From Planoprotostelium fungivorum (taxonomy: Eukaryota > Evosea > Variosea > Cavosteliida > Cavosteliaceae), in the NCBI GenBank assembly GCA_003024175.1, contig MDYQ01000326.1, positions 1 to 64,000 on the forward strand: a stretch of 64,000 nt of DNA, written 5' to 3'. The position numbers were made by a program, and so were the translations under genes. The notes beneath the pieces are model-generated. The model was not told the DNA's origin and did not search any database. It saw only the letters and a list, made by a program, of their open reading frames with translations. Shown one piece after another: positions 25,735-63,854 of the stretch. Within the stretch, counting starts at the first letter, position 1. Every line of letters begins with the position of its first letter.

Positions 25735-27286
25735 ATGGCGGAAGCGTGAGTTGAGCGCAATTGATTCACTGACTCTCTCAAGCACTATGGAAGAGATAGA
25801 CCGAATGATGTCCGGTGAGGATATATGCAACATTCTCAATCTCACCCCATCCAGAACTTGGACTACGTCAAGAACCCGCGCAAATGAAGAGAGATATCTC
25901 TGAGAATGAAGTGGACGATCTCCTCACAGAATTGGGTGTCAACGCCGCAATCAGCCCCCCGGCCCCCGGAGGAAGAGGCATGTCTTCTGGTCCAGGAAGG
26001 GGTGTCTCCTCTGGACCTGGTAGAGGCATCTCTTCTGGTCCTGGAAGAGGCATCTCCAGCGGCCCCGGAAGAGGTTTCTCAAGTGGACCAGGTAGTAGCA
26101 CATCTGTCGAAGGGACTGACGAGGATAGGACGTGGGGCTGCGGCTCCTGAGAGTGCTGGTCGCTCGCGGCCGTTGGCGACTCACACACCAGATGGAAGGC
26201 CCATCATCCACACAGGACCTCCATGTGCTCACTGTAACGAGATGATCATCGGTCGTGTCATCTCTGCCCTTGGCAAGACGTATCACCCGCAGCACTTTGT
26301 GTGCCACCACTGTAACAAGCCCTTTGTCAATGGACAATTTGTGGAACACGATGGATACGCTTACTGTGAGACGGACTACAACCAGCTGCACTGTCCTCGT
26401 TGCAATAACTGCGGCCTGCCCATCGTAGACCGCTGCATCTCTGTGGCCGATCACAAGTACCACCCCGAACACTTCAACTGCACTGGATGTGGAAAGAACC
26501 TGGTAGGCTGCACGTTCAAAGAAGACGAGGGAGACATCTACTGTAACTCTTGCAAAGAGAACCGCACCCAGAGGATCGGTGAGTGCAGAGGAGGATGATG
26601 TCTCACAGAGGCAGGACCCAAGGCAGAGATCTGTGCCAAGTGCAAGAAACTCATCTACGGGGAGTTTGTCATCCTCAAGGGCCAGAAGATGCACGCAGAG
26701 CACTTCCGATGCGAAGAGTGTCGCTGTGAGTTCAGAGGAGGAAACTGTCACGAATACGAAGGAAAGTTGTACTGCGCTGAGGACTACGCCAAGATCATCC
26801 GTAACACGTGTGCCTCCTGTGGTAAACCCATTCTGGGCCGTAGTATCACTGCTGTTGGTGAGTGGAAGAGAGAGAGAGAGGAAGCTGACAGAATCAGGGA
26901 GAATGTGGCACCCCGAACACTTTGTGTGCTTCATCTGCCACGAGCCCTTCCCCGGCAGTAACTTCCACGAGAAGGACGGGAAGGCGTACTGTGATGCCCA
27001 CTACCTCTCTGAGTTTGGAACACCCTGTGCCAAGTGCAACAAGCCAGTCATCCACGGAGCCATCACCTTCCTGGAGAAGACGTACCACACGGAGCACTTC
27101 TGCTGCAGTGGATGTGATGGAGTACTCAAGAAGGGCGAAGTGATGGAGTGGGAATCGAAGCCCATGTGCATCAAGTGCTACGACAACCTTCCCAGGGATC
27201 TCAGGAAGAAGGTGGAGAAGAAGAAAGAGGAAGAGAAGAAGGCCCTGAAGAAGAGAGAGAAGGAGGAGAAGAAGGCCAATAAATAG
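25735..27286 (+). CDS. LD-motif and five-LIM-domain adhesion adaptor (paxillin/PINCH-like)
   Basis: The start is ATG 25735 (MAEA, then a 36-nt intron). Two LD-like motifs follow: MEEIDRMMSELGL, across a short intron, and NEVDDLLTELGVN. Next is a glycine-rich tandem repeat, five near-copies of SSGPGRG (25.98-26.1 kb), then five LIM domains. The zinc ligands are visible: CAHC..HFVCHHC..CETD (1), CNNC..HFNCTGC..CNSC (2), CAKC..HFRCEEC..CAED (3), CASC..HFVCFIC..CDAH (4) and CAKC..HFCCSGC..CIKC (5). The tail NLPRDLRKKVEKKKEEEKK is like the PINCH C-terminus. Paxillins have LD motifs plus four LIMs, and PINCH has five LIMs without LD motifs, so this protein combines both. It probably links integrin-type adhesions to actin. 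Introns lie near 26.11, 26.58 and 26.86 kb. Confidence 0.88.
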
Positions 27287-40066: not shown

Positions 40067-40907
40067 CTACAACTCTCCACACACCCTCTGCTTGCCTCCT
40101 GTGAACAGTTGGGTGATCCAGATCGACGATGAAAATATCTCCACCTCCTCAGCAGTCGCACCCATGTTCTTTGCTCCCATCATATGCCCTTTGGCTTGTG
40201 GCCCACAGCCCATGACGACACAGCCCGTCAGCTCCAACAGACCAGTCTCTTTATTGCTCAGGATGTGAGAGGGAGATAAAACGAGACCGTACGCGATCTC
40301 CACGGCCGAATTGTGTAAGTCTGAGCTGCTGGAACGTAGAGCATTTAGAACTCGCTCGGAGTTGTGTCGGTAGATGTTGTCAAAGAGGCCCCTGCCGGCC
40401 TGACGCAGTCTCATGGCTTCGGTGGGGTCTGTTGTGGGGTTGGCGGGACGTTTGAGTTTCGAATGGTGGATCACCTGACGGGATGGTTCGATGAGGGATG
40501 TGTGGATCGACGTCCTCTGCTTCGAGTCTCGCGATGACAGACCGATGGATGTCAGATGGATGGTGTGATGATGATCTGCACCTGTCCGTGTTCGGATGTC
40601 GCTGCTGCACTCTTGAAGGCATGCATGCAGTTGATGACGTATGGAAAACCGACGAGGGGCCAGCTCTTGATCAGTGCCTCTCTCATCCTTCGGGCGTGAG
40701 TGAAGATTTCATCTTCCTTCGTCGTGTTTCAGTTATCATAGATGAACGTGAGCTCACCCCAGCGTGAGACAAACCTATGACGACTTCTTTGTATAATTCT
40801 GATGTCAGCTCCGGTCGATTCAATGGAATGATGGATACGGTGGACAGGATGGGGAAGAGAGATGTGGGAGAAGAAGCGTCAGGGTATAACATTCGGACCT
40901 TCTTCAT
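40067..40907 (-). CDS. AhpD-like / carboxymuconolactone-decarboxylase-fold protein
   Basis: The start MKKVRMLYPDASSPTSLFPI is at 40907. Exon 2 is MREALIKSWPLVGFPYVINC, and after an intron of about 100 nt comes VIHHSKLKRPANPTTDP, AYGLVLSPSHILSNKETGLL, then ELTGCVVMGCGPQAKGHMMG and AKNMGATAEEVE. GCVVMGCGPQAKGH is the conserved C-x..C..H region where AhpD-fold proteins carry their redox cysteines; here two cysteines four apart plus the histidine are seen. Family members act in peroxide or muconolactone metabolism; eukaryotic function is undefined. The tail after EEVE (IFSSSIWITQLF) is atypical and lies next to a repeat end, so the last exon may have been replaced. Confidence 0.65.
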
Positions 40908-44448: not shown

Positions 44449-46015
44449 ATGGCATCTCAAGTCGTCATCATTGGTGGGGGGATCATTGGGTGGGATAGTA
44501 ATTGGCTGGTTGAAAATTCCTTCGGGACGTATGCTAATCTCTAAAGATGCACAACTGCGTACTACGTTACACACCACCCTTCGTTCACGGCTTCCACTGT
44601 CGTCACAGTCTTAGAAGCATCTAACACCGGTATAGCTCAAGGTGCCTCCGGAAAAGCAGGTGGTCTCGTTGCAAAATGGGCATATCCTCGCCAACTAGGT
44701 GATCCTTTCACGAGGCTTGACATTGAATGGATTAGTCAATGTCACCTTTTCCGAGCATGAGAAGCTAGCAAGAGAACATGGAGGTGAAGAGCGTTGGGGT
44801 TGGAGATACGTTGGAGCGGGCTCGTGGAGAGGTAGAGGAGAGAAATTAGAAAACGTCGGGACAGGTACGAGGACATGAGAGATTCAGAGCGTGATGCCTC
44901 TGCAGGCGTGGGTGAAGGAGGGAAGAGGAAAAGTTTGGAGAAGACCAACGGGCTCCCAGGGGGTGAGGCCAAGAAGAAGGGAAGGGGGAGGAAGGAGAGA
45001 GGACTCCCTCACGATCTCGATTGGGTGAGTGCAAGGAGCAAGGAGAGCTGAGAGGCGAAGGTCAGAGAGGATGTGACGCAGGATTATTCATCCATGGCGA
45101 AGGCTGGAGAGACAGCTCAGGTCCATCCGAGGATGGTGAGGGCACTCTTCTTCGTTCCCTCACAGTTCAGTTCACAGAGAGCATGATGTCCCTCGCCACT
45201 GAGAAGGGAGCCAAATTGATACAGGGGAAAGCGAGGGAGATCCTGGTGGAGGGAGGAAGGGTCAAGGGTGTGCTCTACGAGAGGGAGGGAATGATGCACA
45301 CCATCGAGGCCAGTCACATCGTCTTGTCAGCTGGTGCGTGGTGCTCGCAGATCCTCCCTCAGATCCCCATGGGCTGCACGAGAGCTCACAGCATCACTCT
45401 CCAAGTGAAGGAGGACGTCTCCATCTCCCCCTACGCCCTCTTCACGGAGATCCAGTACAAGTCGGGAGGGAAGACAAGGGAGGTGTCCCCTGAGATCTAC
45501 GCCAGACCTCACGGTGAACTCTACGCCTGCGGGTGGGTCACTGGCTGTGACGTCTTCTCACCTCAGCAGCCCTGGAGACGATCTGACCTTACCCGAGGAT
45601 GTGGACCGTGTCCAGTGTGATCTGAGGGCCTGTGAGAGCATCCGTGACCAAGTGTGCAGTATCTCTGACCAACTGTCGGAGGCCACTGTCACGGCGAGAC
45701 AGGCCTGCTACCTTCCCGTCCTCTCCTCAGGTGAAGGTCCTATCGTGGGAGAGGCCACGCGCATCGCTAAGGGTCTCGTCATTGCCGCTGGACACACCTG
45801 TTGGGGTATCTGTAATGCTCCAGGTGATCACTCAACTCCATCTCACTCTTGACATCCCTCCATCTCACTCTTCACATCCCTCCATCTCACTCTTCACATC
45901 CCTGCGTGTGTTGACGTCTCCAGGCACAGCGAAGGCTGTGAGTGAATTGGTGATGGAGGGAGAGATCAAATGCGCCGACTTGTCCGGATTACACCCGTCC
46001 AACTTTGGACTATAA
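44449..46015 (+). CDS. FAD-dependent DAO-type oxidoreductase (TDA3-like)
   Basis: The start MASQVVIIGGGIIG at 44449 carries the Rossmann GxGxxG, followed after a 54-nt intron by CTTAYYVTHHPSFTASTVVT, VLEASNTGIAQGASGKAGGL and VAKWAYP. The next exons read VNVTFSEHEKLAREHGGEER and WGWRYVGAGSWRGRG, then AKAGETAQVHPRM joined to FTESMMSLATEKGAKLIQGK, HIVLSAGAWCSQILPQIPMG, and the FAD-contacting end GEGPIVGEATRIAKGLVIAA-GHTCWGICNAPG with the last exon GTAKAVSELVMEGEIKCADL. This pattern, including GHxCWGI-NAPGT, matches the yeast TDA3/fungal DAO-family oxidoreductases. The last intron contains a minisatellite, and the last exon recurs after the n at 46247. Confidence 0.8.
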
Positions 46016-55403: not shown

Positions 55404-58400
55404 TCATAGGAATCTGTACGGATCCTCTGTCTCTCCTTTGGTCACTGACACGATACGCTTTTTGCCTTCGTTTTTGGCAACATAGCTGCGGAGCTCCGTC
55501 TGTATGTGTCTGCACGACATCCTCTCGTTTGGATTCATCACCCAACTGTTCCACTGTCACTTTCATCGATAGAAGGATACCCACCATCCCCGCATGATCT
55601 GATTGTGCAGCAGTTCACCTTCGTTGGAGAGTGATCCTCCACCCAGCACGTACTTCTTCACCTGTAGGCCTGTTAGTTAGATTGTCATCTCGATACGTGC
55701 CTCTCTGTTGCTCATGTTTCCATAAGGTGTCTGGCCGTCATTCATCACTTCCCTACATCTCATCAACCGGATGATCCATCGTTTTAGGACCTACCAACAG
55801 AAGACACCGAAAGACCATATGTCAGAATGGAAGCTGTACGATTGTCCTTCCATCACCTCTGGTGCCTGTCTCCGTCAATTCACTCTCAAGACATTTCCCT
55901 CTCACATCCCATCGTTGACTCTCCTGTCGACGTCTCCTGTGACTCTTTCCTTCTTTGATTGCGTTTCCTTCGTCTGGGTTATTCTTCGATATCGCACATG
56001 TAAATCACTCACCGAAGTCACAGAGCTTAGCTGTATCGTCTTTGATCAGTACATTTCTCGCGGCAACCTCTGTGTGTATGATGTATACCGACTCCAGATA
56101 GGACAACGCTTTTGCGATTTGTAACATTCTGACCGTGTTACGAAATGCTCGAAAGACGAGTACTCACATGGAATGACGATCAAAGGAGGAGAGATCTCTT
56201 CCGACACCTCTCAGTCGATTGGCCAGATTCCAATCCATCAGCTCATACAGTATGTTGATGTCACCATCGACATCTGAGAAGTGAGACAGATAGAGCACTA
56301 CGTTCGGGTGATGCATCGACTAACATCTCGTCAATCCATCGATCGACTTGCAAGTGCCCACCTTCACGATCCACAATTCATGTTGCGTTCTCGTTCCATC
56401 TACCCCTCTCTTCATCTTCTTGATCGCCACAGAGGTCACTCCCGACTGCAATCCCCTGTATACCACAGAGTTCTCTCCTTCCGCTATCTTCTCCTCCCGA
56501 TCTGTCTTCTGTTCCTCTTCGTCAGATCGTTGTGATCAAACTGAACTCACTTGATCTTCTGCGATGGTCATCGATACGAAACTATTCTGCACAGTGTGAG
56601 ACATGAAGCGTTCATCTCTCGACGTCACCCCCGCAGCGGTATGCCTTCGCTTCACGATGATGAAAGTGATGAGAGCCACCAAGGATACGAGTAAGATGCA
56701 ACCAGCGACGGCCGCTTCTCGGGTGAGTGTCTCTCTGAATGTGAAACTCACCGATGATGATGATGTAGGTGGGAAAGGGAGAAGGTGCCGCAGCGATCTT
56801 CTGTGATGGACGGGATGGCACACCCACAGAGAAGTTTGTGAGATGATTGCACTTGCACGTGATCGTTAGGTTGATGAAATCACGTTCGGTGAAACATCCA
56901 CTGTTGTCCCACGTGTTGTTTGCCTCGTTGTAGAACATGCAGTACAGCTCGGACAACTGCTCGGCAGTGACACCACGCGTGGGAATGATGACAGTCACAT
57001 TCTCTATCACATCAACTACCTGTCGAACGTTTCAACGATCATCGTCTCGATGGTATTTCACCTCTACGGGAGAGCCGTTCGCGTCGGTGATGGTGAATCC
57101 GTACACAGCAGAAGATTGATTCGCCAGCACCTCAGAGAAGGGCCCCGATTCGGACTCGTACTTCATCAGAACTGCGAAGCTAGGAGAGGTCTCCTGGTTC
57201 TGTCTCCTTCCTCTCCTCAATTCCCCCAGAGTCGATAGATCGATGGCGGCAGCGCCCCTGACGTTCAGCGAAGATTCGATCGCAGTGAACAATTGGATGT
57301 CGGTAGAATTGCGAGTGACCAGAGATGGTCTGGTGATGTCGTAGGCTGTGACAGAGAGAGAGGGAGCATTCAAAGTGGCAGGATTGCTCGAAGACTTGTT
57401 GTTGAATAGATGCGACAGGACTAGGTAGACGTCTTCAGATGAGATGATCTTGCCCGCTGCACCGATCTCTTGGATCTGCAGATTCGCTTGGGCATCTGAA
57501 ATGGGGCTTGGGCACAGATAATCTACCAGGCAGTTAGAGGGCACGTCCAGCAGATAGGCACACGGAAATGGATTCCCGGTGAGATTACAAGCTTTCGATA
57601 CGCTGATAAATCCCGCGGTGGACGTGAATTGGTTGATGCTGAGGTCCAAGCTGGACAGTGGATGGAGGTCGAGGCCTCTCTCTGGTATGGCCCCACTCAA
57701 TATGTTGTTGCTCACGTTCAAATTCAAGAGCGTGGGGAGGTTGAGTACCTGATGGGATATGGTTCCTATTTATCATCAGAAGACAAGAGGAGGATCGATC
57801 GCACCGCTCAATTGGTTCTTGGATAAGGAGAGTGTCTGGAGTGCAGTCAGGTTGCCCATCGAGAGAGGAATGGTCCCATTGAAATCATTTGCAGAGAGAT
57901 CGAGATAGACCAGAGAGTTCAGACCACCCAAGGAAGATGGAATGGTTCCGCTCAAATTGTTACCCGATAGAACGAGAGTTGTGATAGAAGAGAGGCTTCC
58001 TACGGAGGATGGGATGGGTCCATTCAAACGGTTACCAGAGAGGCTCAGATAAGTGAGAGACGCGAGATTGGTCACAGGAGGAATGAGGCCACTCAATTGA
58101 TTTGAGCTCAGATCGAGCACAGTGAGACGACCGTCTGGGGATGGTTATTGACAGGATGTACAGAAGAGAGGCTCACTCGTGAGATTCGGTATAGAGCCAG
58201 TCAGAGCGTTCTTGTTGAGGTTGATCGTAGTCAAATTGGTGATACTGTTGATGATAGAGGGGATGGATCCGACGAGTGGACCTCTTCCTCCGTTGTAGAC
58301 GATCTTCACGGGATAATTGTTCGTCCCATCGCAGGTGACACCCACGTAATCGGCCGAGTTACAGACCTGTCAGTGTTCAGAATCCATGTAGGGGTTGGTC

Positions 58401-60154
58401 ATCACGTTTCTTCCAACCCAATAGTTGTTCGGTCCTGCCCTTCGTTCAGATGTTGTTGTAGACGATAGAAGAGAACGATCACCTTTCAGACTGGCCCACA
58501 CACTTCGCATGAGAGCGACAATGTTTGGATCCGATTGAGCCAGACAAGAGACAGTTCCACTGCATGTGGCATCGACTTGGAGGGGAGTGGGACAGTAGAA
58601 GGGATTTCCTCCCAGATTGCAACTGGATGTCACGTTGATGTACCCCACAGACAGCAGCTGATTGTTCTGCAGAGAGAGACTCTGCAGGCCTGGGAGGAGA
58701 TTGCTCCTGCCGGGTACCGTTCCGTTGAGATGGTTCGAATTGAAGTCGAGTTCGACCAAGAGTGGAAGGTTGATGACAGAGGAGGGTATGCTCCCCGTGA
58801 TGTTGTTCCTACCGAACCCAGTCTGGTTGAGGCTGACGAGGTTTCCAAAGGAGGGAGGGACGGTTCCAGTGAGGCTATTCGTGTCCTGCAAGAGTTACAA
58901 ACGGAGGGGGAGGGACGTTTTACCATGAAAAACTGTCTGAGGAGAGTCAAATTACCGATGCAAGTGGGAATACCACCCGATAGCTTATTGGTACCAAAGT
59001 TGAGATAAGTCAGACTCTTCAGATTACCTGTGTTCATCTCAACCATCGTACACTCGTCTGTACTCACAGATGGTGTCAGGTAACGAGCCGGTCAGATCGT
59101 TGACTCCAAAATTGAGGTATTGAAGATGGACGAGTTTGCCGATGTTGGGTGACACCGATCCAGTGAGTCCGTTCGTATCCTGTCGACATCAGCTCCCATC
59201 TCTCAGACGTTAGATGGGTCCATGACGATGTGTCCTCACCATCCAGAGAGTGACGAGTTGCGTCAAGCCGTAGATGCTGGAAGGTATGGGCCCCGTTAGA
59301 GTGGTCATTCCTCTCAAATTAAGATAAGTCAGCTGAGGTGCTGTCACCGTTGAGTTATAGAGACAAGGGAGATCCCATCACCGAAGCACGTAATGGGGCC
59401 TGTGAGTTGATTCGCTGAGAGGCCCAAGTAAGTGAGAGGGAGGTTACCTGATCGAGTTGGTCAACTGAGTTGTCACCGTGTGGATCACTCACAGAGGGAG
59501 GTGGGTATGGTTCCAGTGAGGGCGTTGTTGGATAGATCGATCTTGGTTACATTGACGAGGTTGGCCATAGAGGAGGGGATCGATCCGGTCAGTAAAAATC
59601 CTTTCCATCCACTGTAAGAGATCTCAATGGGGTAGCTGTTGGTGGAATCACAGGTGACACCGATGTAATCACTGGAAGAACAGACCTGATCGGCTTCAGT
59701 TGTCATCGTCTTCGTGTCAATAGCTCACATTGTTCCCAGCCCAATACGTGTTCGGACCTATCATAGTTTTAGACGAGAAGCAGACAAAGTGTCATTGGTT
59801 ATTATGATCATGTAAGATCGACGCGAAAATAAAACGTTTCAAGAGGACATCATCATTCTCACCTCCGAGACTGGACCATATACTTTTCATCGTCGAGACA
59901 AGAGCTGGGCTCGATTGAGCTACACATCCTTGAGAGAGAAAGAGGAGAAGGAAGGCAGAACGGAAGATATCCTTCACGTACGGTCGAGACCGAGGGGTGT
60001 TGGTGCAAGAGAATTTCTTTGGCACGATCAGCAGACCCACGAGAATGACAACAATGATGGACAAGATTTGAGCGGGGTTCTCAAAGAAAGGATGGTGTAA
60101 GCTGTTACGTAGATTATTGTCTGAGGATATTCCATTTGCAGAACCTTCGATCAT
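55404..60154 (-). CDS. LRR-GPS receptor with a tyrosine-kinase-type cytoplasmic domain
   Basis: A hydrophobic leader (KDIFRSAFLLLFLSQGCVAQ) is followed by two tandem modules. Each has a cap (MKSIWSSLGGPNTYWAGNNV / VCSSSDYIGVTCDSTNSYPI, and SVWASLKG..GPNNYWVGRN / YVGVTCDGTNNYPV), plant-like LRRs of the LTGSIPSSMANLVNVTKIDL type, and a Cys-rich end (CNLGGNPFYCPTPLQVDATC; CNLTGNPFPCAYLLDVPSNC). A GAIN-like stretch ends in a GPS motif: YCMFYNEANNTWDNSGCF ... ITCKCNHLTNFSV, with the HLT cleavage triad intact. Next come a TM helix (AVAGCILLVSLVALITFIIV) and the kinase: VAIKKMK, IIHTEVAARNVLIK, LCDF(G), WDAPEVMEG, SDIWSFGVFCWEVMNDGQTP, NPNERMSC, ending at 55404. AARN and W-APE are tyrosine-kinase marks. 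HTE replaces HRD, and the glycine loop is weak (IAEGENSVVY), so activity is uncertain. The start is unsure: a second hydrophobic run (ILSIIVVILVGLLIV) precedes the leader. Confidence 0.8.
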
Positions 60155-61006
60155 ATCGCGAGAATGACACAACTGTATGCTATCAGCCGATGTTAATCTC
60201 TTTCTTACAGTCTTCTACCTCGGTTCTGACGCAATTTACTACTGATCCTTGGTCTTTTTAGAATAGATATCACGAGCAGCTCACCTTCTAAACTCTTCCG
60301 CGGTTGATCCATCTCGGATGTGTACAACAGTTCTTCGTCACACAATGAACAGGTGCGAGAAATAGACACAAGGTCAGTTGAAAGACCAGAGAGGCACGCC
60401 TGAGTGCGTTTGTGTCTGACAGAAAAATTTTTAGCGCAAGACAAGAATTCTGGGTCGAACTTTCTTTGCACTAAAGGTGATCTATGTATTGACAACAGTA
60501 ATGATGTAAACTTCAAACTTTCAAGAGGCCAGTGGCCACTACTGACCCCATCTCAGTGAACAGACTATACAGTGATCAAAATCTTCGCTCGTACACACAA
60601 AATCCCAGGGTTGACCTTGTAAGGTTCCTGATGACGACCAACCTCACCGTAACAGCACGTTAAGGGTTTTCATCGAGAAGCACACACGACCAGGAGTCTC
60701 ACGAGTAGATCTGCATGAGAGATCGAACACAGACCTCCCTACCACAGTGGATACGTGCTCATTCTATATAGTACATTCTCACGCCACATAAATGAAACTG
60801 CTTTCGTTGTTTTCTGATCCTAAGGGACCAACGTATTTTGTTAGTGTCGGCACCTTTTTCGGGCCTTTTCTCCTGCCGATAATTGGTGAAGTTCTAAACC
60901 CCGCGGCTCGGCTTGGGTCCAGCTGGTATGCTGCATCCTTCTTGATGCTGAATCTATTCTCTTACTCATGAAATTATAGACTTCAAAGCACACATTCAGC
61001 CGCAGT
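60155..61006. other. Divergent intergenic region between the receptor and MYRF-like genes
   Basis: About 850 bp. A minus-strand ATG at about 60.31 kb (MDQPRKSLE, then a GT donor) could be a first exon of the receptor gene, but I could not find an acceptor that keeps the frame. A TATA-like ctatatagta lies at about 60.77 kb. Otherwise nothing is seen. Confidence 0.35.
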
Positions 61007-61936
61007 ATGATGCAACAATATCAAGATGCACAATTTCAACTCAACGCACTCGACATGAAACCACAAGATGTGGGATTTCAAATGATAGACGGGAGACAAC
61101 AGCAGTCTACCGACGATTCGACCCAAATCATGGAGCAGATGTTATTTCGAGATCTGGACCAAGTATTTTCCAGTGATTATGACTCCTTCAGTTCACCGGC
61201 AGATAATCCCAGCAGCAGTGAACCACCGTGAGTACCAATGCATTTCTGCACTACGTCAACAGGGTGATTTGAAGAGATTAACGTCAAACAGACTCGTTGA
61301 CTACACAGGAAGTGTCGTTGATCTGGTCGTACTACACAAGCCCAGAGGTTCCAAAGGATTATGGCAGAGAGTCGAGGGAGGTGACAAGTTGCGAGTCACA
61401 AAGGGCAAGGGAAAGCGTCTGAAATTACAATTTCTATTGCCACAAGGTAAGCATCATGATGACCATGTGATTTGCCCTCTGAATGATAAATAGGGTTTCA
61501 ATGTTCACCCACATTAGTCCATGATAGCAATTTAAAAATCAATCTGAGTCAAGTCGATGCCTCACCTTCACACGGTGGCACTGAGTCAGATTTCGTCTTC
61601 GGCGTGAGTTCCGTCTCCATCATCACCCTCCTCTACTGTTTCCACCCATCCCTTCTCTCATGTTGTTCTGAACTCTCGTCCTCCAGACCGCCAAATTATT
61701 CAACTCTCTCATCGAAGTGGAACTCAAATTGTTTCGAATCGCCAAGCAGCTGCAATTCATGGCCCAAGTGAGATTGAGTTCAGAGGATGAAACTGAAGCC
61801 TTCAGGTCTTTTCCAACACCGGAGAGAGTGTCGTGGGAAGATCAGTCGACTTCTCTACCCACAATAGTGGCGCTGTCAAGTGAGTCCATCATTCCCTCGC
61901 GATGCTGAACGGAGCAGTCCATCCATGACGGGTCAG

Positions 61937-61974
<38 letters not shown>

Positions 61975-63854
61975 GCAGAACCTCAAACACGAGCAGAGAA
62001 CAGATCCAGAGATCTCGTTACATCCTCACGGTGAGAGTTTCTCCACGATGTGAATGACTGAGAGAGACAGTGCAAGACAATCCTTACGTGGCAGAGAGGA
62101 CATCACCTCAACAGGTGAGAGAGCACAGGAAGGTGAGCTGAACGAGTACAGCAAGTGGAGAAGAAGAGGAAGACGGAAAACTTTGCTTACACTCCGACGT
62201 ACCCCAACGTGGTGGCTCATCCCTCGGGGTCCAATCACATCAATCCATACCCCGTTCAACACCCTCCACCCATGCAATCTCAACATCAGGGGCAGATGCT
62301 CCATTCCATGCAGCAACCCATGCAAGGACAGATGCAAGGACAAATGCAGGGACAGATGCAAGGTCAAATGCAAGGACAAATGCAGGGACAGATGCAAGGA
62401 CAAATGCAGGGTCAAATGCAAGGTCAAATGCAAGGACAGATGCAAGGACAGATGCAGGGTCAAATGCAAGGACAGATGCAAGGTCAAATGCAGGGACAAA
62501 TGCAACAAGAGATGATGGATAACTACCAGTACAACAACGTACAGCAACAGAGAAACGAGATGAACCAGAACTACGAGAACACGGGAAGGAACGACACCGT
62601 ACTACCTGGCTCATTGGATGTCATGGGGACCGTAAGGGCTAGGGCTTTCATGCAATTCAGTGACATCCGACTCAAAGTATTATCTCATCAGATGAAGAGA
62701 GAGACTGAACAGGACAGACGAACATCGAAGACATTGTCGATGCCATCTCCATTGTCAGTATGCTGGAGGGGAAGAAGTACGAGTGGAAAGAAGAGCATTC
62801 AGAGATGCTGGGGAATGGAAAGACGAAAGGACAGAAGGTTGTCGGTCTCATCGCACAAGAAGTGCAGAAGATTATCCCCGAGGTGTGTCTCACATCCACT
62901 GTCTCATCCACTGTCTCATCCACTGTCTCATCTACCGTATCTGATGTTCTTGCAATGGAATGAAATGATCAGGTGGTACATCAAGATCCTACGACAGGCT
63001 ATCTGGCCGTGAGCTATTCTGAAATCCTTCCCATCCTTGTGGAGGCCTTCAAAGAACTGCTCAACGACTACAACGACAACAAACAGAGTGTACAGAAGCA
63101 ATTAGATGATCTCTACGATAAGATGAGTCAGCTCGAACTGGGTGAGTCACACCACGTGAATCGTCGGACGTGAACTGAAGGATGGACAGAGGAGGGACCA
63201 TCGGCTCAGACGAGAGAGGACATCAGGATGTTGACCTTCTACACGAGAAACGTTCAAGGTGGAAAGGGACACAAGAAGTCGTTCGGTAAACTACCCCGCA
63301 AGCGACACGCTCAGATCTGTCTGGGTGCCGCTGTTCTCGTATCCATGGTCTTCATCATCATCGGTGAGTCATCACGCCTATCCACTGTGTCTCGATCGAG
63401 TTGATGGACGCAGGTGTCATACTCATCGCAACGAACGTACCGGGGAGGAGCAGCAGCACCACACCCGTCAACAGCAAGAGAGGAATCGTAGAGGAAAGAT
63501 ACACCTGGGAGATGGATAGACCCTCCATCAGAGAAGAGTGGAAGAGACAACAGACCTACACACCCCCCGATTCCTTCCCATCTAGAGGTGAGAGGGAGAA
63601 GAGGAGAGAAGATGACCAAAGGACAGTCAGCACGAGCACGACGCGGAGCACGAGCAGCACCGTCTCTTCTACCTACATGGTCCCCTTCACGACGGACGGT
63701 GGTGAGTGAGAGTTGACGAAGAGGAGTAACAAAGACAGGTCTGAGCCCTGCGGGTATGAACGGAGGGTTCATCGCCGGCATCGTCGTTCTGTCTCTCGGT
63801 GGAATAGGATTACTCGCTGCAGGGACGACACTGTGCTATACCCTCTTTTCATAA
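61007..63854 (+). CDS. MYRF-like membrane-bound transcription factor with self-cleaving ICA (S74) domain
   Basis: The start MMQQYQDAQFQLNALDMKPQ at 61007 leads an acidic/Q-rich N-terminus. A basic, strand-rich region follows (LVVLHKPRGSKGLWQRVEGG, KGKRLKLQFLLPQ), plausibly the DNA-binding domain, though I cannot confirm the Ndt80 fold. Next are a poly-Q tract and about 15 MQGQ repeats (62.32-62.51 kb), then the intramolecular chaperone/auto-processing domain: GSLDVMGTVRARAFMQFSDI-RLK, with Ser and Lys five apart as in MYRF (SDxRxK), then VDAISIVSMLEGKKYEWKEE, VVGLIAQEVQKIIPE and TTGYLAVSYSEILPILVEAF. A TM helix (ICLGAAVLVSMVFIIIGVIL) and a second hydrophobic C-terminal helix (FIAGIVVLSLGGIGLLAAGT) end at 63854. 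MYRF trimerises, cuts itself, and the N-terminal part moves to the nucleus. Introns 30-50 nt. Confidence 0.82.
61936..61980 (+). repeat. CAG/CAA tract (poly-Q) in the MYRF-like gene
   Basis: About 14-15 consecutive glutamine codons, mixed CAG and CAA, in frame in one exon reading. Confidence 0.7.
62319..62514 (+). repeat. 12-bp coding minisatellite (MQGQ repeat)
   Basis: About 15 in-frame units of atgcaaggacag or close variants, lying in one exon that continues without a break into the ICA domain. Confidence 0.9.

Follow-up and report, generated by a model that had tools for sequence, protein, structure and literature searches.

The gene described here occupies positions 55404..60154 on the minus strand of a 64,000-nucleotide stretch of the Planoprotostelium fungivorum genome (the window; positions 1 to 64,000 of contig MDYQ01000326.1, our contig C287, in an assembly of 36.86 Mb and 471 contigs). 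It encodes two leucine-rich-repeat (LRR) modules, a GPS motif of the type found in self-cleaving receptors, a single transmembrane (TM) helix and a tyrosine-kinase-like domain. We show that this gene belongs to a large family in which the residues of the predicted cleavage site are invariant among the loci read, while the catalytic aspartate of the kinase-like domain is lost in nearly all. Unless another strand is given, the features listed below lie on the minus strand.

The 22 exons of the gene, running from 60154 to 55404, all join in frame. The model was built from genomic sequence, and the transcript evidence comes from loci of another organism. In a first model of 1273 residues, 20 of the 21 introns measured 37-60 or 105 nucleotides (nt) and one only 27 nt; comparison with paralogues shifted one acceptor and replaced the 27-nt intron with an inferred GC-AG intron of 39 nt (55662..55700), giving a refined model of 1267 residues and raising the kinase profile score from 209 to 218 bits. 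Exon 1 (59863..60154) holds an N-terminal hydrophobic stretch and a signal-peptide-like stretch that no ATG directly precedes; the start of the deposited model lies further upstream, and the true start, and with it the 5' end of our model, is uncertain. The deposited protein, which we call P0001 (1419 residues), is 98% identical over the part searched (residues 660-1273 of the first model) and carries the name "putative LRR receptor-like serine/threonine-protein kinase". The Pfam domains, GPS and kinase, are already on this deposited protein, whose name mentions the LRR receptor kinase only. One could suppose that the locus is misassembled, that it is decaying, or that GPS and kinase are separate products of two adjacent genes, and the uncertainty of the 5' end and of one splice site leaves some room for this. 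However, the exons are in frame throughout, a single protein has been deposited, and the same domain order recurs at 58 of 60 loci of the genome and on transcripts of another organism. We rejected a break between GPS and kinase on these grounds, and hold the whole family of such explanations to be very improbable.

Pfam, run on the spliced protein, identified PK_Tyr_Ser-Thr (E 1.1e-44), LRR_1 (E 1.2e-29) and the GPS, all above cut-off, and listed LRR_10 and an ErbB1 TM model, each below its own cut-off. The two LRR modules, each with an N-terminal cap, span 58483..59757 and 57560..58434 by Pfam (limits approximate) and are 39% identical to each other. They are followed by a GAIN-like region (56945..57525, placed by profile comparisons; limits approximate), the GPS motif (56825..56944), the TM helix (56653..56767) and the tyrosine-kinase-like domain (55491..56508, by Pfam and splice-aware profile alignment). 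The helix is a hydrophobic stretch split by the intron 56751-56715; in P0001 it is the one continuous hydrophobic stretch between GPS and kinase (two adjacent 19-residue windows), and a corresponding stretch is present in 15 of the 16 GPS proteins examined, P0005 lacking it. Pfam and the hydrophobicity of P0001 therefore bear out what an earlier note, made from the letters and open reading frames alone, had described: two LRR modules, a GPS with its HLT triad, one TM helix and a tyrosine-kinase-like domain, on one strand and in exons that join in frame. In having a single TM helix and, by sequence, a kinase fold, the window protein resembles receptor tyrosine kinases (RTKs), and the best PDB sequence matches of the related protein P0060 are the kinase chains of EGFR, ITK, CSK, Fes and ALK. 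P0060, which comes from another organism, and P0057 of P. fungivorum carry IPT/TIG-repeat ectodomains on their GPS-kinase unit.

The ectodomain and the rest of the receptor have different nearest relatives. In a search of 15 proteins, the LRR modules of the window gene matched those of P0008, P0010 and P0011, whereas its GAIN-like region and kinase found their best matches in P0002-P0005, P0052, P0053 and P0055 (41-54% identity over full-length pieces), none of which matched the window LRR modules in the same search. Because the LRR part and the GPS-kinase part differ in this way, the data indicate that ectodomain modules have been exchanged.

The GPS motif scores 35.9 bits against a Pfam cut-off of 22.5 (E 1.1e-8 over residues 877-916; E 9.6e-9 in the genome search) and carries four Cys, a Trp and the triad H910, L911 and T912 (56837..56845), which places the predicted scissile bond between 56840 and 56839. 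An above-threshold GPS with HL/T or HL/S is one mark of autoproteolytic GPS/GAIN proteins, and by analogy with these the window receptor would be expected to cleave itself at HL/T912. To characterize the preceding region, a profile of 222 positions, covering the GAIN-like region and GPS of 15 family members, was run against PDB sequences. It matched 20 solved adhesion G-protein-coupled receptor (GPCR) sequences at E values of up to 0.08, the best being ADGRG6 (21du, E 1.4e-11), colinear over 194 of the 222 positions. When the pre-GPS profile was compared with three adhesion-GPCR segments, hhalign gave a score of 23.8 against a maximum of 15.9 in 100 column shuffles, a comparison biased in favour of a match since the three segments had been picked from the full-profile matches. 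Together these comparisons suggest a probable GAIN-B-like fold before the GPS, in a region whose sequence resembles GAIN weakly, so that of the GAIN/GPS unit proposed in the earlier note the GPS part is firm, being above the Pfam cut-off and carrying HLT, and the GAIN part is suggested.

Across the genome the GPS model gave at least 150 matches, a figure that may understate the number of genes, as 150 of 176 candidates were scored, and may also overstate it, as near-identical loci on different contigs are possibly uncollapsed haplotypes. Two near-identical pairs, C120:17360/C5:24593 and C1:310224/C196:42487, are either recent copies or such haplotypes. The scored matches are clustered, with ten on C351, seven on C1, six on C196 (42.7 kb), six on C58, five on C388 and three on C335 (17 kb). 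Sixty of the 150 loci could be read: the 30 best-scoring, the window, nine others in their clusters and 20 taken at even spacing from the remainder. The H, L and T of the GPS are present in all 60 (and in all 36 that remain once the loci are thinned to below 75% identity), although the loci were found with a GPS profile, which itself has some preference for HLT. Nine of the 60 lack one or two of the four Cys: the fourth is missing in nine and the second in four.

Splice-aware profile alignment finds a kinase-like domain after the GPS in 58 of the 60 loci and in all 20 of the evenly spaced set, with a profile that excludes the window gene and includes six other family members, which helps detection. 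Scores were 28-199 bits, compared with at most 20.1 in shuffled controls and at most 20.9 in reverse-strand controls, except for one of 48.6 at locus C58:331384; this last score lies opposite the strand of the GPS gene and possibly belongs to a neighbouring kinase gene. A further eight GPS loci, outside the 60, show a match to P0056 that covers the GPS and reaches into the kinase. Where the alignment begins no later than the eighth model position (38 loci), GPS and kinase are only 191-350 nt apart, a distance that leaves room for one TM helix and not for seven. We rejected a seven-transmembrane (7TM) reading on this basis: where an adhesion GPCR has seven helices after its GPS, these loci have one TM-sized gap and then a kinase.

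The same architecture occurs outside P. fungivorum. A search with P0056 recovered GPS plus kinase in four rows, representing three transcript loci, among the best 120 of 266 matches, and GPS, TM helix and kinase stand on one transcript in the isoforms P0056/P0058, in P0059 and in P0060. These transcripts are not from P. fungivorum, the pieces listed in its genome being 23-46% identical to them.

Turning to the kinase-like domain of the window gene, the beta-3 Lys (K1025, in VAIK) is kept at 56419..56421, whereas HRD is replaced by HTE at 56068..56076, with Glu1115 in the position of the catalytic Asp, both by profile alignment. The DFG motif starts at 56013..56019 and its G is completed past the intron 56012-55968, which uses a GAAG acceptor. 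Both P0001 and our first model read DFD here, the deposited splice choice differing by 6 nt. We rejected DFD as a true loss of the motif, since splice-aware alignment with a profile built without the window gene picks the other acceptor, which gives DFG and a better fit. The refined domain keeps VAIK, the catalytic-loop Asn, DFG and the F-helix Asp. It lacks the full set of beta-3 Lys, HRD Asp and DFG Asp that an RTK would show, and having lost at least one of the three (Asp to Glu) it would be classed, from its sequence, as a pseudokinase.

This substitution is far from isolated. The catalytic loop could be aligned in 56 loci. The HRD Asp is kept in three of them (one of 19 in the evenly spaced set), and the other 53, the window included, have 11 different residues in its place; the beta-3 Lys is kept in 40 of the 41 loci where it is readable, 16 loci aligning only from kinase model position 56-59 onward. 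Lys, HRD Asp and DFG Asp occur together in a single one of the 60 loci, C109:175681. The deposited models P0002-P0004 keep HTD but read GFG, and P0057 has HGN in place of HRD. By comparison, the HRD Asp is kept in 19 of 20 control kinases of the same genome, each on a contig free of GPS matches or over 30 kb away from all 150 of them, although these were chosen from strong Pfam matches and are biased toward canonical kinases. Most kinases of the family therefore look catalytically dead at the level of their motifs, and the window protein probably has a pseudokinase or very weak kinase as its intracellular domain. Selection seems to act more strongly on the cleavage site than on catalysis. In one subfamily with a CVWWD-type GPS (on C1, C196, C335, C69 and C221), the kinase N-lobe is absent or unrecognisable, with alignments starting at position 56-59.

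A tree of 51 kinase domains, shown midpoint-rooted, places the window gene in a family clade with support of 100/99 and makes the C109 gene sister to the other eight genes in the clade of the window gene (98/88). Its three plant rows fall together with the nine other non-GPS kinases (90/88, a node not starred, in a small sample), and the window kinase lies outside this grouping, so that in this sample it does not belong to the RLK/Pelle clade. Moreover, the EukProt transcripts P0059 and P0060 keep both Asp residues. The sister position of the C109 gene and the retention of both residues in these transcripts make the loss of catalysis look derived, having arisen within the family.

On this evidence we see an even chance that the window gene encodes a receptor that cleaves itself, has a pseudokinase or very weak kinase inside the cell, and signals by release of its ectodomain and through a partner kinase. 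The LRR ectodomain of this single-pass amoeba receptor would bind something outside the cell, and the GAIN/GPS unit would cut itself at HL/T912 during maturation, leaving the N-terminal fragment non-covalently attached to a membrane fragment made of the TM helix and the kinase-like domain. A ligand, or a pull on the ectodomain, might then strip off the N-terminal fragment and change the packing or the partners of the membrane fragment, whose intracellular domain would signal by partnering an active kinase, either allosterically or as its scaffold; the intact paralogue at C109:175681 is a candidate for that role. The receptor has no 7TM pocket, and its residues after T-N-F are unlike the tethered agonist of adhesion GPCRs; release is therefore proposed to act through the stub, the TM helix and the intracellular domain, and the loss of the catalytic Asp leads us to favour a pseudokinase working through a partner. 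Both the trigger and the partner kinase are put forward by inference only. The earlier note had suggested that self-cleavage controls a kinase. The architecture and the invariant HLT agree with that suggestion; its kinase part needs revision in view of the HTE motif and the loss of the Asp in 53 of 56 loci. What the note missed is the size of the family and the degenerate catalysis beside an invariant HLT, which is the most surprising feature of the system.

Besides the selection biases stated above with the counts for HLT, for the kinase-like domain and for the control kinases, several observations weigh against this interpretation. As regards cleavage, the pre-GPS part taken alone as a profile matches no PDB chain, no family member matches any Pfam GAIN model, and hhalign assigns the comparison with the three adhesion-GPCR segments a probability of 7.7%. 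The first two of these results suit a different view, in which the GPS is a structural disulphide and strand element that is never cut, in an otherwise ordinary LRR adhesion receptor; cleavage is lost in some animal GPS proteins. However, a structural role has no obvious need for His and Thr, and the triad is invariant in the same 60 loci in which nine have lost one or two Cys, though the profile used to find them has some preference for HLT. We regard an uncut GPS as doubtful. As regards the link to a kinase, C351:52113 and C351:55341, which have identical GPS peptides, show no kinase-like domain within 2 kb downstream, and the 16 loci with partial alignments lack a recognisable start of the domain.

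The remaining objections concern catalysis. The three loci that keep the HRD Asp include two that are near-identical and have no alignable N-lobe, and the window domain differs from an active kinase mainly by one residue, Glu for Asp, so that residual kinase activity of the window protein is possible. It could be, then, that the gene encodes an active RTK with an unusual catalytic loop, in which Glu1115 or a nearby acid acts as base and ectodomain release directly switches kinase activity, as the earlier note suggested. The retention of the beta-3 Lys, catalytic-loop Asn, DFG and F-helix Asp in the refined model, the RWxAPE and AARN motifs, which resemble those of tyrosine kinases, and the two Asp residues of P0059 and P0060 speak in its favour. 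Set against them are the 11 different residues that stand in for the catalytic Asp across 53 of 56 loci, the restriction of the complete Lys, HRD-Asp and DFG-Asp set within the window's clade to the C109 gene, and the GFG of P0002-P0004 in spite of their HTD. An active kinase thus appears unlikely, though less so than an uncut GPS, and a self-cleaved receptor with a pseudokinase or very weak kinase remains the interpretation that we prefer.

GAIN/GPS biology has been studied mainly with 7TM receptors and polycystins. Adhesion GPCRs such as ADGRG6, ADGRF1 and ADGRG1 share with the window family the GPS Cys, Trp and HLT and large, varied ectodomains, but have 7TM where the family has one TM helix and a kinase-like domain. 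After T-N/S-F, moreover, the family continues with S/T, V/I/L and then mostly G or Q, which differs from the hydrophobic agonist end of adhesion GPCRs (TNFAVLM). The Polycystin-1 family also places LRRs and a GPS before its membrane segments; the window protein has no channel or 11-TM part and has a kinase-like domain instead. The RTK pseudokinases ErbB3, EphB6 and ROR likewise combine a single TM helix with a tyrosine-kinase-like domain that has lost a catalytic residue, and the window family differs from them in its GPS and GAIN-like ectodomain unit and in the extent of the loss of the HRD Asp (53 of 56 loci). Plant LRR receptor kinases show the same order of LRR, TM and kinase and include many inactive members; the window protein differs in having a GPS and in a kinase that lies outside the plant grouping, as represented by three plant rows.

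In the published work, fusions of receptor and kinase are described as GPCR-TKL/K and GPCR-TK proteins of choanoflagellates, oomycetes, amoebozoans and sponges (PMC12716839), which have 7TM as opposed to the one TM helix found here. The same paper describes the linkage of GAIN and 7TM as restricted to Holozoa, with both domains occurring in other genes elsewhere. A survey that included P. fungivorum reports no GAIN domain among the family-2 GPCRs of amoebozoans (PMC10445921). Four Physarum tyrosine kinases are described with all tyrosine-substrate residues, three of them with one TM (PMC4758236, main text), and a word search of that main text did not find GPS; a GPS motif does appear in an expression table of PMC7852580. 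No GPS-bearing receptor kinase was found in the open-licence papers searched, in agreement with the earlier view that no well-characterised receptor of this design is known. The design combines known parts in a new way and is represented by a large family.

Elsewhere in the window, Pfam identifies LIM-domain exons (25888-27283, plus strand), an FAD-dependent oxidoreductase exon (44967-45617, plus strand) and, just above cut-off, a carboxymuconolactone decarboxylase-like exon (40070-40708, minus strand). Open frames with a poly-Gln stretch lie at 60980-63012 on the plus strand; three pieces of them were run against Pfam and did not match.

That the genome has 150 or more GPS loci, whose ectodomains can be exchanged, suggests a recognition repertoire, a role that we put forward by inference only. 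More broadly, and with somewhat less confidence than we place in the mechanism of the single receptor, we tentatively propose an amoeba class of well over 100 GAIN-gated pseudokinases in which self-cleavage and release would have been selected over catalysis, with swappable ectodomains, one or a few intact partner kinases and a repertoire that may serve recognition of prey or self. With 58 of 60 sampled GPS loci leading into a kinase-like domain, the family is a natural setting in which to test what self-cleavage does without the 7TM tethered-agonist pocket. Having lost the HRD Asp in 53 of 56 loci while its cleavage site is invariant, it also separates two receptor functions that are normally studied together. 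The intact C109 paralogue is a clear candidate for an active partner. Given that the GAIN-7TM linkage is described as Holozoa-restricted, these receptors also bear on the origin of adhesion receptors.

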